From Marinobacter alexandrii (GTDB taxonomy: Bacteria; Bacteroidota; Bacteroidia; Cytophagales; Cyclobacteriaceae), in NCBI GenBank assembly GCA_039984955.1, contig JBDWTN010000007.1, positions 1-64,000 on the forward strand: a stretch of 64,000 nucleotides of DNA, given 5' to 3'. The position numbers and the translations under genes are program-made. Under the pieces are notes generated by a model. That model saw nothing but the letters and a program-made list of their open reading frames with translations. It did no database searches and had not been told where the DNA came from. Each line of letters opens with the position of its first letter. Positions within the stretch are counted from its first letter, which is position 1. Shown here piece after piece: positions 6,306 to 11,739 of the stretch.

Positions 6306-7592
6306 TCAACTCACCAGAAACTCTTTAAACTGCTCATAATTAGTTTCCATCTCAATGAATATCTTCTCCTTCTCAAGGAGTGGTTGTGCAACATCTGGAA
6401 TGGACAGCTCAGTTCCCAATGTATCATTCATCGTTGGGAGAAACTTACAATAATGAGCTGTCCCCAAGAAAACCCCCTTTTCTCCTTCCTTCAGTGAGTC
6501 TTGAAGTGCCTGATAGCCTATAGCACTATGAGGATCCATGATGTATTCATTTCTCTCAAAGCATTTCTTTATTGCAAGCTTTGTTTCCTCATCGTCCATA
6601 CTAAAACCTGTAATATCCCTTCGAATAGCGGCAATATCATTATCATACAATGTTTGTAGTCTGGTAAAATTGCTAGGCATACTTACATCCATTGCATTAG
6701 AAATGGTTGGAACTGTTTCTTTGGGTCGATACTCTCCCTCTATAAGGTACCTAGGAACAACATCATTAGCATTGGAAGCGGCAATAAACCGGTGAATAGG
6801 GAGCCCCATTTTCTTGGCTAAAATTCCTGACGTAATGTTTCCATAATTTCCACTAGGTACACTGAAGACTAACTGCTCCTCTAACCCCATATTTATATAC
6901 GGAACATAATAGTAAACCGACTGTGGAAGCCACCGAGCTATATTAATGGAGTTAGCAGAAGATAAATTCATTTGACTACTTAAATGCTTATCTAGAAACG
7001 CTTGCTTCACCAATGCCTGACAGTCATCAAAATCTCCATTTACCTTTATTGCTTGAATGTTTCCTCCCAAAGTAGTCATCTGATGCTCTTGCAGTGCTGT
7101 CACTTTACTTTGTGGATATAGAATCACGACATTGATTCCGGGCTGATTGTAGAATCCGGAAGCTACTGCTCCTCCTGTATCTCCTGAGGTTGCAACGAGA
7201 ATGGTTGTTTCACTATTCTCTGACTCCTTAAAAAAGCCCATTACCCTGGCAAGAAACCGAGCACCAACATCTTTGAAAGCCATCGTAGGTCCATGAAATA
7301 ACTCAAGACAATGCGTATTCTCTCCTACCTGAGTCAAAGGAATATCGAAGGTAAACGTATCTTGTAAAATGGATATAAGCTTATCTTCTGGAACATCCTT
7401 TTTACAGAAATGCTTCAACACTTCTAATGCAATATCCGGCAATCTTTTATCCCCAAGAGTGTTCAAGAATTCTTTTTGAAGCTTCGGAATTTCTGTAGGA
7501 AAATACAAGCCAGTATCTCCTGGTAAACTATTCAAAACAGCTTCTCTGAAGGAAGCAGTATTTGTTCTATCCTTGGTACTATAAAATTCCAT
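6306..7592 (-). CDS. thrC: Threonine synthase
   Basis: A 428-residue PLP enzyme that converts O-phosphohomoserine to threonine, the last step of the pathway. The N-terminal motif MEFYSTKDRT and the PLP lysine in GPTMAFKDVGARF (Lys at about 107) are typical, as are the phosphate-binding SGDTGGAVASGF and SGNYGNITSG motifs. Length fits the family. It starts one base after the thrB stop codon, so thrA, thrB and thrC form one operon with coupled translation. No strong terminator is visible downstream. Confidence 0.96.
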   Translation of the reverse strand: MEFYSTKDRTNTASFREAVLNSLPGDTGLYFPTEIPKLQKEFLNTLGDKRLPDIALEVLKHFCKKDVPEDKLISILQDTFTFDIPLTQVGENTHCLELFHGPTMAFKDVGARFLARVMGFFKESENSETTILVATSGDTGGAVASGFYNQPGINVVILYPQSKVTALQEHQMTTLGGNIQAIKVNGDFDDCQALVKQAFLDKHLSSQMNLSSANSINIARWLPQSVYYYVPYINMGLEEQLVFSVPSGNYGNITSGILAKKMGLPIHRFIAASNANDVVPRYLIEGEYRPKETVPTISNAMDVSMPSNFTRLQTLYDNDIAAIRRDITGFSMDDEETKLAIKKCFERNEYIMDPHSAIGYQALQDSLKEGEKGVFLGTAHYCKFLPTMNDTLGTELSIPDVAQPLLEKEKIFIEMETNYEQFKEFLVS

Positions 7593-7593
7593 T

Positions 7594-8514
7594 TTATATT
7601 ATTCTACATCCTTGAAGGTCAATACTCGTACGATACAAGCTGAAATCGAAATCACTATTGAGATATAAATTTTCAATCTTATCTATAGCCGTTTCAACTC
7701 CACCATCATCCCTAAACAAAGCAAACATACTAGGGCCTGACCCTGAGATATTAAAACCGACCGAGCCAGCTTCATCAACAATTTGCTTTACATCATCATA
7801 AAATGGAATGAACTGGCTTCTAACTGGCTCTGCAATAAAGTCTTCTATCGATCTCTTCAACAATGAATAATCTTTATCATGTAAAGCATGGATCAAGGCT
7901 GCAACATTGCCCCATTGATTCCTGGCTAACGAAACCGAAACTTCTGATGGTAGCATCTTCTTTGACTCTGCTGTTTTTATCTGCACGTGAGGAAAAATGA
8001 TAAGCACTTTTAACTCAATGTCAGTGCTTATCTGAAAAAGATCCAATGGTTCATAGCTCCTGACCACCTGAAATCCACCCAATAGAGAGGGGGCAACATT
8101 ATCCGCATGATAGCATTTTGAGGCAAATGCCTCTCCTTCCAAAGCAAACGGCAGGAGTTCGTTTCTCGAAAAAGGATTTCCAAGTAATTCATTAGCGGCA
8201 AACACAGCGCCTGAAGCACTGCTTGCACTCGACCCTAAACCACTCCCTGGTTTAAAAAATTTTTGAATTGAAATATCAAATCCTTGATCAGAAGCTAATT
8301 GGGAGAGTAATGCTTTTATCGCAATTGTTGCTACATTCTGATCTGGGTCTTTACTCAAATCCGCGCCTAAGATTTCGTCAATCACCAATTTAGAATCATT
8401 TCTTTTTGTAAGCGTCAACTCTTCTCCAATGGACTCGACAGCAAATCCAATGGTATCGTATCCGCATCCTAAATTAGCTACTGATGCCGGAGCAAAGACT
8501 TTTATCTTTTCCAT
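7594..8514 (-). CDS. thrB: Homoserine kinase
   Basis: A 306-residue GHMP kinase that phosphorylates homoserine. The glycine-rich ATP loop PGSGLGSSASS lies at about residues 88-98, the N-terminal motif FAPASVANLGCGYDTIGFA binds substrate, and the C-terminal GFNISGSGPSMFAL motif is the third GHMP signature. The start codon lies five bases after the thrA stop. It is the middle gene of the thr operon. Confidence 0.96.
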   Translation of the reverse strand: MEKIKVFAPASVANLGCGYDTIGFAVESIGEELTLTKRNDSKLVIDEILGADLSKDPDQNVATIAIKALLSQLASDQGFDISIQKFFKPGSGLGSSASSASGAVFAANELLGNPFSRNELLPFALEGEAFASKCYHADNVAPSLLGGFQVVRSYEPLDLFQISTDIELKVLIIFPHVQIKTAESKKMLPSEVSVSLARNQWGNVAALIHALHDKDYSLLKRSIEDFIAEPVRSQFIPFYDDVKQIVDEAGSVGFNISGSGPSMFALFRDDGGVETAIDKIENLYLNSDFDFSLYRTSIDLQGCRII

Positions 8515-8519
8515 ATCAA

Positions 8520-10940
8520 TTAGTCTGACTGAACAATTCGTAATACATCTGCAAAAATGCCGGAGGCCGTCACCTCAGCCCCTGCTCCTGCCCCTTTAAT
8601 CACCAACGGCTGCTCATTGTAGCGATTGGTATAAAAAAGTACAACATTGTCTTTTCCTTCCAGGTGATAGAAAGGATGTGAGGATGACACTTCTCGTAAA
8701 CTTACACTTCCTTTATTGTTTTCATATGAAGCTATGAATTTCAACTTTGTCCCATTGTCAACTGAGGCTTTATAAAGCGATCTAAAGTATTCTTCCTCTT
8801 TCTCTACCAACTCATAAAACTCTTCTAAGCTCGCGCTTTTTAAACAAGACTCAGGAAGAAATGAAGTTGAACCTAATTCCTTCATTTCCATCGAATACCC
8901 ACTTTCTCTAATCAGAATAAGCAGTTTTCGCATTACATCTTCGCCCGATATATCTAACCTAGGATCTGGTTCTGTATAGCCTAATTCTTTTGCATACCTA
9001 ATCACCTCAGCAAAAGACCTGCTGCCATCGTATTCATTAAACAAGAAATTCAATGTGCCAGACAAGACTGCTTCTAGCTTTATTACCTGATCACCACTTC
9101 GTACAAGGTCGTTCAAAGTAGAGAGCACAGGGAGTCCAGCACATACGTTTGTCTCTATCAAAAACTGACTTCTGTATTTCTTTGCTGAAGACTTGAGCTC
9201 CAGATAATCTTTGTATGATCTTGTAGCCGCAATCTTATTGGGAGTCACTACCGAGATACTCTTCCTTAGTATTTCTTGATACAATTCAGAAATGGCTGAT
9301 GAAGCAGTAATATCAATAAAAATACTGTTTCGATAATTTAGATCGGTCATGGACTTAATAAATCCCTCTTTAGAAAATTTTTCACCTTCAGGTAAAAGAC
9401 CCTCCCACTTGGAAAATGGAATACCATCTTTTTGAAAGATCATTTTCCGTGAATTCGCTATGCCAATCACTTTGATATTGAGATGATGATGTTCTTTCAG
9501 GTAAGAAAACTGCTTAGTGATCTGATTCAAGAATGCCTTACCAACATTCCCTGTTCCAATAATAAACAGATTGATTCTTTTCATTTCTGAAAGGAAAAAA
9601 CTCTCATGTAAAACATTTAATGCTTTACTAAGATCAGATTTAGGAAGAATAGCTGAGATATTTCGCTCAGAAGAACCCTGTGCGATTGCCTTTATGCTTA
9701 CGCCATTTTTTCCCAATACATTAAACATATTTCCACTCACCCCTACCTGATTCTTCATGTTTTCTCCTACCAATGCCAGTAATGAATACCCTTCTTCCAT
9801 CACGGAAGATTGAAGTGATTCATCAACATTTCGAAACTCAGCTTGTACAACCTTCAATGCTTTTTTTGCCTCTGAAGATTTAAGTCCCAAGGTTACTGTG
9901 TATTCTGCATTTGCATAGGTGGTGAAAACCACTTGTATGTTGTTGTCTGCGAGTACTCTAAAAAGTCTGGCAAAAAAGTTTGCACTTTCCTTTAAGTAGT
10001 TACCACTTACAGATAAAACCGAAATATCATCCGTACTGGCTATGCCTTTTATCAAATCGGGATCACCTTTTTCATTGGATATGAGTGTTCCTTCAGATTC
10101 AGGAGAAAATGTGTTTTTAACTCTAACTGGTATGCCTTCCTTGAACACAGGAAGTATGCTTTGAAAATAGATCACTTTTGCTCCAAAGTGAGACAATTCC
10201 AACGCTTCCTTATAAGAAACGTGATTCAACGTATGCGATCTCTTTACCAGTCTTGGATCTGCTGTCATGATACCGTCTACATCTGTCCATATCTCCAGCA
10301 CATCAGCTTTAAGAATACCTGCCAAAATAGAAGCTGTATAATCTGACCCACCCCTCCCAAGAGTCGTCATAAGACCTGTATCTGTAGATGCAACGAATCC
10401 AGGAAATACATTTACATCCACAAATTGGTTTTTCAATTCATCAAGTATTTCTTTTGTTCTATCAAGGTTTACCGTTGCGTTTCCAAAAGAATCGTCTGTC
10501 TTTATTACTTCTCGTGAATCAAAAAAAGCAGAAGCTACTCCTTCCTCCTTCAGATAAGAATTTATTACACTAGCTGAAAGTAGTTCCCCCGCACCAAGAA
10601 TAAAATCCTTACTTCTATCAGTGAGCTCCTTGAGAAGGTAAACTCCTTTGCAAACTTGCCTAAGCTGATCAAAAACAGCTGTTACTTCATTGCTTTCATC
10701 TTTTTGCACCAAGTCATGGTACATTTTCTGATGCCTTTCTTCCATGGTAAGCAATAGGCTTAAATAAGACAGATCTCCACTACAAGCCAAATGCCCAACA
10801 CGTTGGAGATCATCTGTAGTACTTCCTGTTGCAGAAACGACAACTATCATTGGAGAATCGCTTGATGCAATAATGTTTTTCGCCTTTCTTATTGACTCGC
10901 TAGAACCAAGAGATGTACCTCCAAATTTTAATACTTTCAT
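8520..10940 (-). CDS. thrA: Bifunctional aspartate kinase / homoserine dehydrogenase
   Basis: An 806-residue fusion enzyme. Residues 1-290 are aspartokinase (MKVLKFGGTSLGS at the start, TTLGRGGSDYTA near residue 200). About 300-450 hold the tandem ACT-type regulatory region. Residues from 453 are homoserine dehydrogenase, with NAD-binding IIGTGNVGKAF, the SGTLNFLF motif and EPDPRLDISGEDVMRKL. It supplies homoserine to thrB and thrC and is usually feedback-inhibited by threonine. The start is the ATG at 10938-10940; an upstream in-frame ATG at 10964 lies inside the attenuator hairpin and would add a non-homologous octapeptide. Expression is probably controlled by the leader at 11010-11075. Confidence 0.96.
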   Translation of the reverse strand: MKVLKFGGTSLGSSESIRKAKNIIASSDSPMIVVVSATGSTTDDLQRVGHLACSGDLSYLSLLLTMEERHQKMYHDLVQKDESNEVTAVFDQLRQVCKGVYLLKELTDRSKDFILGAGELLSASVINSYLKEEGVASAFFDSREVIKTDDSFGNATVNLDRTKEILDELKNQFVDVNVFPGFVASTDTGLMTTLGRGGSDYTASILAGILKADVLEIWTDVDGIMTADPRLVKRSHTLNHVSYKEALELSHFGAKVIYFQSILPVFKEGIPVRVKNTFSPESEGTLISNEKGDPDLIKGIASTDDISVLSVSGNYLKESANFFARLFRVLADNNIQVVFTTYANAEYTVTLGLKSSEAKKALKVVQAEFRNVDESLQSSVMEEGYSLLALVGENMKNQVGVSGNMFNVLGKNGVSIKAIAQGSSERNISAILPKSDLSKALNVLHESFFLSEMKRINLFIIGTGNVGKAFLNQITKQFSYLKEHHHLNIKVIGIANSRKMIFQKDGIPFSKWEGLLPEGEKFSKEGFIKSMTDLNYRNSIFIDITASSAISELYQEILRKSISVVTPNKIAATRSYKDYLELKSSAKKYRSQFLIETNVCAGLPVLSTLNDLVRSGDQVIKLEAVLSGTLNFLFNEYDGSRSFAEVIRYAKELGYTEPDPRLDISGEDVMRKLLILIRESGYSMEMKELGSTSFLPESCLKSASLEEFYELVEKEEEYFRSLYKASVDNGTKLKFIASYENNKGSVSLREVSSSHPFYHLEGKDNVVLFYTNRYNEQPLVIKGAGAGAEVTASGIFADVLRIVQSD

Positions 10941-10951
10941 AACTGTACAAT

Positions 10952-10982
10952 AAAAAAGCGCCATCCTTTTTAAGAATGGCGC
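10952..10982 (-). terminator. Attenuator terminator in front of thrA
   Basis: On the minus strand GCGCCATTC and GGATGGCGC form a nine-pair stem (one G-U) around an A/T loop, directly followed by TTTTTT. It lies between the Thr/Ile leader peptide and the thrA start, only 11 bases upstream of it, so it can act only as a conditional terminator, not as the end of an upstream gene. Confidence 0.85.
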
Positions 10983-11009
10983 TTCGGTTGTTTATTTAAT
11001 AAGCCGCAA

Positions 11010-11075
11010 CTACCATTCACCCGCTCGGGTAATCCCGATGGTGTCTGTGATAATCGTTGTGCTTGTATTTCTCAT
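11010..11075 (-). CDS. thr operon leader peptide (thrL-like)
   Basis: A 21-codon frame begins ATG at 11075 and ends TAG at 11010. It reads MRNTSTTIITDTIGIT followed by five more residues ending in Trp. Six of 21 residues are Thr and four are Ile, the end products of the pathway, which matches the composition of the E. coli thrL peptide. The stop codon is 28 bases before the attenuator stem. A short hairpin (ACCC-GAGC-GGGT, 11019-11030) overlaps the last codons and could be a pause signal. I infer ribosome-stalling attenuation: charged Thr/Ile tRNA shortage would stall the ribosome and prevent the terminator. Confidence 0.85.
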   Translation of the reverse strand: MRNTSTTIITDTIGITRAGEW

Positions 11076-11163
11076 TATAACTTAAATGTAGTCGTGAGAT
11101 TCAATAATCAAAACAAATGCCTATAAATAATTTGAAATAAGTACATTTTTTTATTTTAGACAT

Positions 11164-11739
11164 ATGAAGAAAAAAGCACTCACACAAATTGCCTTTGAAT
11201 TCTTGTCCGTAGTATTCGCAGTGCTTCTAGCCTTAGGTCTTAACTCATTCAAGCAAAACATGGATCTTGAAAGTGAAGGTGAGTTTCTTCAAGAAAAAAT
11301 CATTAAAGAAACAAAAAGAAATCTTTTAGAACTCGACTCAGTATTAATCACTAACAAGGCATTTTTTATCCAGTTAGACTCTCTCAGAAAGACTGATAAG
11401 CTTATAAGTGATCAACTTAACATTAGTATCGCAAGTGAATTATTGACTCGAAGTGCTTGGGATTTCACTAAAGCATCAAGATCGTTTTCCTACATAGACG
11501 AAGAATTTCTAAGTGAAGCAGCTTTTTTATACGAAAGCCAAGATTATTATATGACCATCTCCAATCAAATGTTTGAAAAGTTGGGGGATATGTTACTGAC
11601 AGATCCAGATATGGAAAAGGTGATAAAACTAACTCACTACTACATATCAAACCTTAATGTTACAGCCGAAAATTTAATAAAAACCTATCAGGAATTTTTA
11701 GATAGATATACCCAGTCTATCTCTGAAGAAATGATCTGA
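11164..11739 (+). CDS. Membrane-anchored hypothetical protein (DUF6090-like)
   Basis: A 191-residue protein with one N-terminal membrane helix (IAFEFLSVVFAVLLALGLNSF, about residues 8-28) whose end resembles the membrane motif of DUF6090-type proteins. The rest is helical and charged, probably extracytoplasmic, with a long helix (LESEGEFLQEKIIKETKRNL) right after the membrane. Divergent from the thr operon. A weak promoter may be TTTG (11131) plus TATTTTAG (11152). Function unknown. Confidence 0.55.
   Translation: MKKKALTQIAFEFLSVVFAVLLALGLNSFKQNMDLESEGEFLQEKIIKETKRNLLELDSVLITNKAFFIQLDSLRKTDKLISDQLNISIASELLTRSAWDFTKASRSFSYIDEEFLSEAAFLYESQDYYMTISNQMFEKLGDMLLTDPDMEKVIKLTHYYISNLNVTAENLIKTYQEFLDRYTQSISEEMI

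Follow-up and report, generated by a model that had tools for sequence, protein, structure and literature searches.

A candidate thr-type attenuator upstream of thrABC in Marinobacter alexandrii, and related Thr/Ile leaders in Bacteroidota

Is the threonine operon of Marinobacter alexandrii, a member of the Bacteroidota, controlled by a leader peptide in the manner of E. coli thrL? The question was raised by a preliminary description of the 64,000-nucleotide stretch of DNA analyzed here (hereafter, the window), which had noted a 21-codon frame with six Thr and four Ile codons ahead of thrA. We conclude that thrABC is very probably controlled by a thr-type, ribosome-mediated transcription attenuator. 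The codons, the terminator, the mutually exclusive pairing with its covariation, the promoter-like site and the operon can all be read directly in the DNA, and the features concerned are collected in Table 1.

In 2010, leader-peptide systems were, to the knowledge of the authors of PMC2965389, unproven outside Proteobacteria and Actinobacteria. The preliminary description held that for many amino-acid operons in the phylum of the window attenuators have yet to be described, a view corrected by two sources: Table 1 of PMC2864571 includes Bacteroid-trp as a cis-regulatory candidate, and PMC9723704 presents strong clues for leader-peptide attenuation before amino-acid operons of Flavobacterium psychrophilum, naming pheA and hisG among the conserved 5' elements. 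These F. psychrophilum candidates share with the window both the phylum and the proposed mechanism. Short frames reminiscent of leader peptides are also mentioned for B. thetaiotaomicron (PMC7366714). Among the matches listed in the open-licence literature, neither a thr leader of Bacteroidota nor the hairpin-CATAT motif described below was the subject of a paper. The window element is a further candidate, of thr type, in a phylum for which attenuators have already been proposed. It brings together regulatory codons, antiterminator, terminator and covariation in a phylum whose flavobacteria reportedly lack Shine-Dalgarno sequences (PMC9723704); because of this reported absence, the leader would provide a clean test of transcription-translation coupling there.

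Table 1. Features of the thr leader region and operon in the window, and hairpin-CATAT elements of his leaders at other loci
Feature	Position	Strand	Basis
Predicted promoter: TTTTG (11113-11109), 18-nt spacer, TACATTTA (11090-11083)	11083..11113	minus	sequence
Leader peptide frame MRNTSTTIITDTIGITRAGEW, stop TAG, 21 codons	11075..11010	minus	
Segment 1 (CGAUUAUCA), pairs with UGGUAGUUG (11015-11007)	11048..11056	minus	predicted minimum free energy fold
Segment 2, GAAUGGU, antiterminator strand spanning codons 20-21 plus the first stop base	11012..11018	minus	duplex search, covariation
Segment 3, GCCAUUC, alternative partner of segment 2 (antiterminator) or segment 4 (terminator)	10974..10980	minus	duplex search, covariation
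Intrinsic terminator (3:4 hairpin 10985-10955, T-run to 10952)	10952..10985	minus	sequence, covariation
thrA, bifunctional aspartate kinase/homoserine dehydrogenase I, 806 aa	8520..10940	minus	NF006959, 914.9 bits
thrB, homoserine kinase	7594..8514	minus	
thrC, threonine synthase	6306..7592	minus	
His-leader hairpin-CATAT before hisG	L263:2199-2236, L267:2200-2237, L284:2200-2238, L259:1234-1271		

The leader frame is present as first described. Its Thr codons (ACA, ACA, ACG, ACA, ACC, ACC) and Ile codons (ATT, ATC, ATC, ATT) all fall within codons 4-16 (11066-11028). With eight Thr/Ile codons in ten, it ranks first among the 1255 short ATG frames of the window, the runner-up scoring 7; this ranking covers frames of 8-60 codons on both strands, nested starts being counted separately. 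When thrA upstream regions were dinucleotide-shuffled, one of 2420 shuffles reached the same score. The 131-nt leader RNA has a predicted folding energy of -43.9 kcal/mol (z -6.4), a stability equaled by none of 200 shuffles. We place the start of thrA at the ATG at 10940, where the sequence MKVLKFGGTS agrees with the start in relatives; the start at 10964 given in the ORF list lies within the terminator and was rejected. The gene 5' of the leader (11164-11739) is divergently oriented, and an NCBIfam search with it gave no match.

A promoter-like site precedes the leader. The pattern TANNTT[TA][GA], which follows the -7 form TAnnTTTG quoted in PMC9723704, occurs once in the 400 bases before thrA, at 11090-11083, and transcription of thrABC would begin a few bases ahead of the leader ATG. 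Counterparts are found at the same place behind TTTTGATTA in two relatives, TACATTTG in G007 and TACTTTTG in G009. A transcription start between leader and thrA had been named at the outset as evidence that would speak against attenuation; the promoter pattern tested has no match in this interval in the window, and looser promoter-like matches occur there in G007 (-35) and G061 (-61). The promoter-like element ends 7 bases 5' of the leader ATG (window 11083-11075), so that the leader transcript may be almost leaderless.

Downstream of the leader, the terminator has a stem of 14 pairs, a loop of 3 and a T-run on the minus strand. The stem ends 15 bases and the T-run 11 bases before the thrA ATG, the latter in agreement with the preliminary description. 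So short a distance would also suit a control exerted mainly on translation, the hairpin and the leader ribosome governing ribosome access to thrA rather than transcription. We regard this as improbable: a G+C-rich hairpin followed immediately by a T-rich run is the form of an intrinsic terminator, compensatory changes preserve this form across the six genomes compared below, and in one of these, G025, the hairpin ends about 157 bases before thrA.

For transcription attenuation a competing structure is needed, which the preliminary description had left uncertain. We assign it to the pairing of segment 2 (11018-11012) with segment 3 (10980-10974), found at the corresponding place in six genomes. 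In the ribosome-free minimum free energy fold, a predicted 1:2 protector hairpin (11056-11048 with 11015-11007) sequesters part of segment 2. The proposed sequence of events is as follows. Transcription would begin just 5' of the leader. When Thr-tRNA or Ile-tRNA is scarce, the ribosome would stall within codons 4-16, leaving segment 2 (GAAUGGU) unoccupied; segment 2 would then pair with segment 3 (GCCAUUC), the terminator would be blocked and thrABC transcribed. When Thr and Ile are ample, the ribosome would reach the stop codon inside segment 2 and mask this segment, and the 3:4 terminator would halt RNA polymerase ahead of thrA. Were the leader left untranslated, the 1:2 hairpin would keep segment 2 and the terminator would form too. 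The geometry is suitable: codon 16 (from 11030), the last regulatory codon, begins 11 nt before the 2:3 duplex, and if the edge of the ribosome lies about 12 nt further on (the figure quoted in PMC4833913), a stalled ribosome would leave segment 2 mostly or wholly free. Counted from the first nucleotide of the final Thr/Ile codon, segment 2 begins at 11-19 nt in all six genomes, a spacing compatible with the same figure. Ribosome stalling, coupling, termination in vivo and the response to both amino acids are what we infer for this leader.

The combination of leader, segment 2 and terminator is common to the window and to G007, G009, G018, G025 and G061. G007 (68%) and G009 (66%) are the closest relatives by ThrA and have leaders MKTITTTIISRTTGTTEYPCHKEW and MRTLSIIITITGIARKPKW, each with the promoter-like site and the terminator; G018, G025 and G061 are more distant genomes of the family. 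Conservation of the leader in close relatives was one of the checks suggested beforehand. Of the three genomes nearest by ThrA, two show it; it fails in the third, G008 (65%), where promoter-like site, leader and terminator are all missing. The loci L005 (G009), which has all three elements, and L006 (G008), which has none, come from sister genomes in the tree. The window-type anatomy is also missing in the 58-59% ThrA relatives L007 and L113-L120.

We picked the six loci by eye, because an automatic finder, which detects a hairpin with a T-rich tail at 58 of the 114 Thr/Ile-leader loci surveyed below, often placed its match inside the leader and missed G025, whose terminator is beyond its range. 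L020, L023, L073, L144 and L196 pass our strict terminator rule (see below) and were excluded from the six because their hairpin shape or tail differs. A duplex search finds the best partner of the terminator arm near the leader end in all six genomes. Against shuffles, the 2:3 pairing gives p values of 0.175 in the window, which by itself is not significant, 0.0155 in G007, 0.228 in G009, likewise not significant by itself, 0.003 in G025, 0.033 in G061 and 0.0015 in G018. The combined p of 6e-6 is optimistic, since the genomes were chosen by eye and in some of them the pairing could already be seen when the choice was made.

In an alignment of the six (A6), the antiterminator is paired in 39 of 42 cells, falling to 36-59% when slid by 1-3 columns; every measure of this pairing is equaled by 77 of 500 shuffles. 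The terminator is paired in 64 of 66 cells. Both sides have changed in 8 cells, which none of 500 shuffles equaled. Of the five terminator measures, two were often equaled by shuffles: the count of pairs showing double changes in 44 and the count of pair types in 219 of the 500. The compensatory changes in the terminator stem that the preliminary description had proposed to look for are therefore seen in this alignment. One column triple (35/86/104) varies on all three strands, as U-A-U, U-G-U and A-U-A. In a ThrA tree of 60 rows built by a quick method, in which the branch of L040 is aberrant (length 10) and for which L144 yielded no ThrA, the six do not form one clade. Four label changes are required, so the anatomy was either gained repeatedly or gained once and lost repeatedly.

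How close is this arrangement to the E. coli thrL attenuator, whose layout the preliminary description had recognized here? Like the window, E. coli thrL (NC_000913 190-255) has a 21-codon Thr/Ile leader and a terminator before a bifunctional thrA, and in both cases segment 2 lies at the leader end, overlapping the stop codon. Measured with the same script, segment 2 starts at -10 relative to the stop in E. coli and at -7 in the window, and the terminator arm follows the stop at 22 nt and 28 nt, respectively. Across the six genomes, segment 2 starts from -5 to -13 (-24 in G061, which has a longer frame), with the terminator arm at 26-30. The terminator sequences differ, and that of the window lies nearer the thrA start. 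From this shared geometry the window leader would work like thrL; the likeness is one of layout and is neutral as to shared descent. Against the Rfam Thr_leader model (RF00506, gathering score 55 bits), the window scores 20.7 bits (E 0.16) and L233, the G018 locus, 23.3 bits (E 0.47), both below gathering.

A structured 5' region before an amino-acid operon might instead be a tRNA- or ligand-sensing element, a T-box or riboswitch acting with no leader peptide. The window yields no Rfam hit at gathering score, the nine weak hits obtained at a relaxed E-value include Thr_leader and neither a T-box nor a riboswitch, and the conserved feature is the codons; we give this explanation almost no credence. 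Other weak matches, among them trpB and GibS, were judged to be chance.

We then considered how frequent Thr/Ile leaders are before thrA. Searches covered 59 relatives, including the genome of the window itself, 196 family genomes (at least 165 with a match at 1e-150) and GTDB contigs, where the best 80 of 590 relatives were used. After exclusion of the truncated L092, usable upstream regions numbered 242: 30 from the 59-relative set (window included), 79 from GTDB, 25 from the family and 108 fetched. Frames with at least six Thr/Ile in ten codons are found in 114 of the 242 regions. The corresponding figures for the controls are 5 of 242 for reverse complements, 24 of 2420 for shuffles and 4 of 130 for other gene starts in the genome of the window. 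By set, they amount to 77/152 in the family, 3/11 in the rest of the order and 34/79 in named records, the last including Flavobacteriaceae, Chitinophagaceae, Weeksellaceae, Marinifilaceae and one Balneolaceae bin.

This survey bears on a further explanation, in which the Thr/Ile frame arose by chance and the hairpin is a constitutive partial terminator that fixes the level of thrABC. The absence of the leader from G008, the sister of G009, and the lack of significance of the window's 2:3 duplex taken by itself would fit such an origin. It is nevertheless very unlikely in our view: frames with at least seven Thr/Ile in ten occur in 79 of the 242 thrA upstream regions, as against none among the 242 reverse complements or the 130 other gene starts in the genome, and shuffles give 3 of 2420. 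A point against the attenuator reading itself comes from a strict terminator rule, which asks for -10 kcal/mol or lower and an end no more than 40 nt from thrA: only 10 of the 114 leader loci satisfy it. Five of these belong to the window's group, G025 being beyond range. Thr/Ile leaders thus precede thrA in about half of the regions surveyed and come in two anatomies, one of which mostly lacks a canonical terminator.

This second anatomy is seen among the 108 Thr/Ile-leader loci other than the six of window type. A hairpin scoring at least 10 is present at the leader stop in 68 of them, against 33 of 323 control positions; typical forms are ACGGGG-UAA-UCCCGU or ACCCC-UUU-GGGGU, spanning the stop codon or lying just ahead of it. 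Under a looser hairpin rule, the 108 divide into 52 in which the hairpin is followed at 7-11 nt by the motif CATAT, 32 with a looser TATA-like sequence, 16 with the hairpin alone and 8 that are hairpin-free. Of the 114 leaders, 59 have CATAT in the 45 nt that follow the stop, where about 9 would be expected from shuffled letters. The window leader has no CATAT in this interval and stands outside the class. In a separate count of 107 loci, CATAT lies within 25 nt behind the hairpin in 56, of which 52 at 7-11 nt, whereas the hairpin end varies from -2 to +11 relative to the stop; the steadiness of the spacing while the hairpin shifts indicates that CATAT is linked to the hairpin. G is scarce in the spacer and CATAT is followed by N-R-Y-C-C (46 non-redundant loci), and the hairpin arms exchange G and C between clades. 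Most leaders of this class lack a U-run terminator; examples from thr leaders are L206:398-432, L055:2883-2918 and L088:2895-2929.

How might such leaders operate? A classic 2:3 switch, sought by eye in the CATAT class, was not found. Hairpins behind CATAT average -3.7 kcal/mol versus -1.8 in shuffles, and at least six T follow them at only 4 of the 46 loci (2.6% in shuffles); a canonical terminator is missing in most of these 46. RNAalifold applied to one clade of 33 gave only 5 pairs, all invariant and hence uninformative. A MAFFT alignment of 48 hairpin modules misaligned G-first and C-first hairpins and was discarded as unfit for a covariance model. According to PMC12288461, a pause can last about ten times longer when an RNA duplex lies 11-12 nt upstream of the 3' end of the paused RNA. 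A hairpin followed by 7-11 nt and CATAT would put the 3' end inside CATAT at about this distance, and this match, together with a spacing fixed to the hairpin rather than to the stop codon, suggests a built-in pause. We may thus tentatively hypothesize, at somewhat less than even confidence, that many Bacteroidota thr leaders and some his leaders differ from terminator attenuators of E. coli type in that the hairpin-CATAT module makes RNA polymerase pause until the ribosome has caught up, shut-off being achieved through Rho or a weak hairpin, and that the window lineage has the classic terminator form. If so, hairpin-CATAT would be a conserved pause sequence.

Leaders of other amino-acid operons in the group show related arrangements. 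A hisG match was obtained in 48 of 59 genomes, and 47 upstream regions were compared after exclusion of L283, whose upstream sequence is lacking. Of these regions, 28 contain a frame with at least four His in ten codons, whereas none of the 47 reverse complements does. These leaders differ from the window leader in carrying histidine codons instead of Thr/Ile, and display the same two anatomies, terminator type and hairpin-CATAT type. The genome of the window itself has, outside the window, a hisG leader of terminator type (L339, G000:C7:2950520-2951274), in which MRINQLHHHAHHYNFTQER is followed by an intrinsic terminator. In the hairpin-CATAT type, the motif, or a variant of it, lies 7-9 nt behind the hairpin and reads CATAT in L259, L263, L267 and L284, CATAC in L264 and TATAT in L287.

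The Rfam family Bacteroid-trp (RF01692) matches 4 of the 59 genomes at E 0.01, one of them over the cut-off (L288), with 0 matches in G000 at this E-value under the stricter filters used for more than 40 genomes. The stretch examined at L288 has no WWW frame. The three matches under the cut-off, L289 (G007), L290 (G028) and L291 (G047), have a WWW frame and then a terminator, as in the window, for another amino acid and other genes. Finally, 6 of 30 pheA loci have at least four Phe in ten codons, and two of these are leader-like: in L295 (MKAHNTFFYFYYFFSAPAGL) and L319 (MKTTRFYFSFYFYPSHRGLAE), a Phe-rich frame is followed by a terminator-like sequence 5' of the prephenate dehydratase gene.
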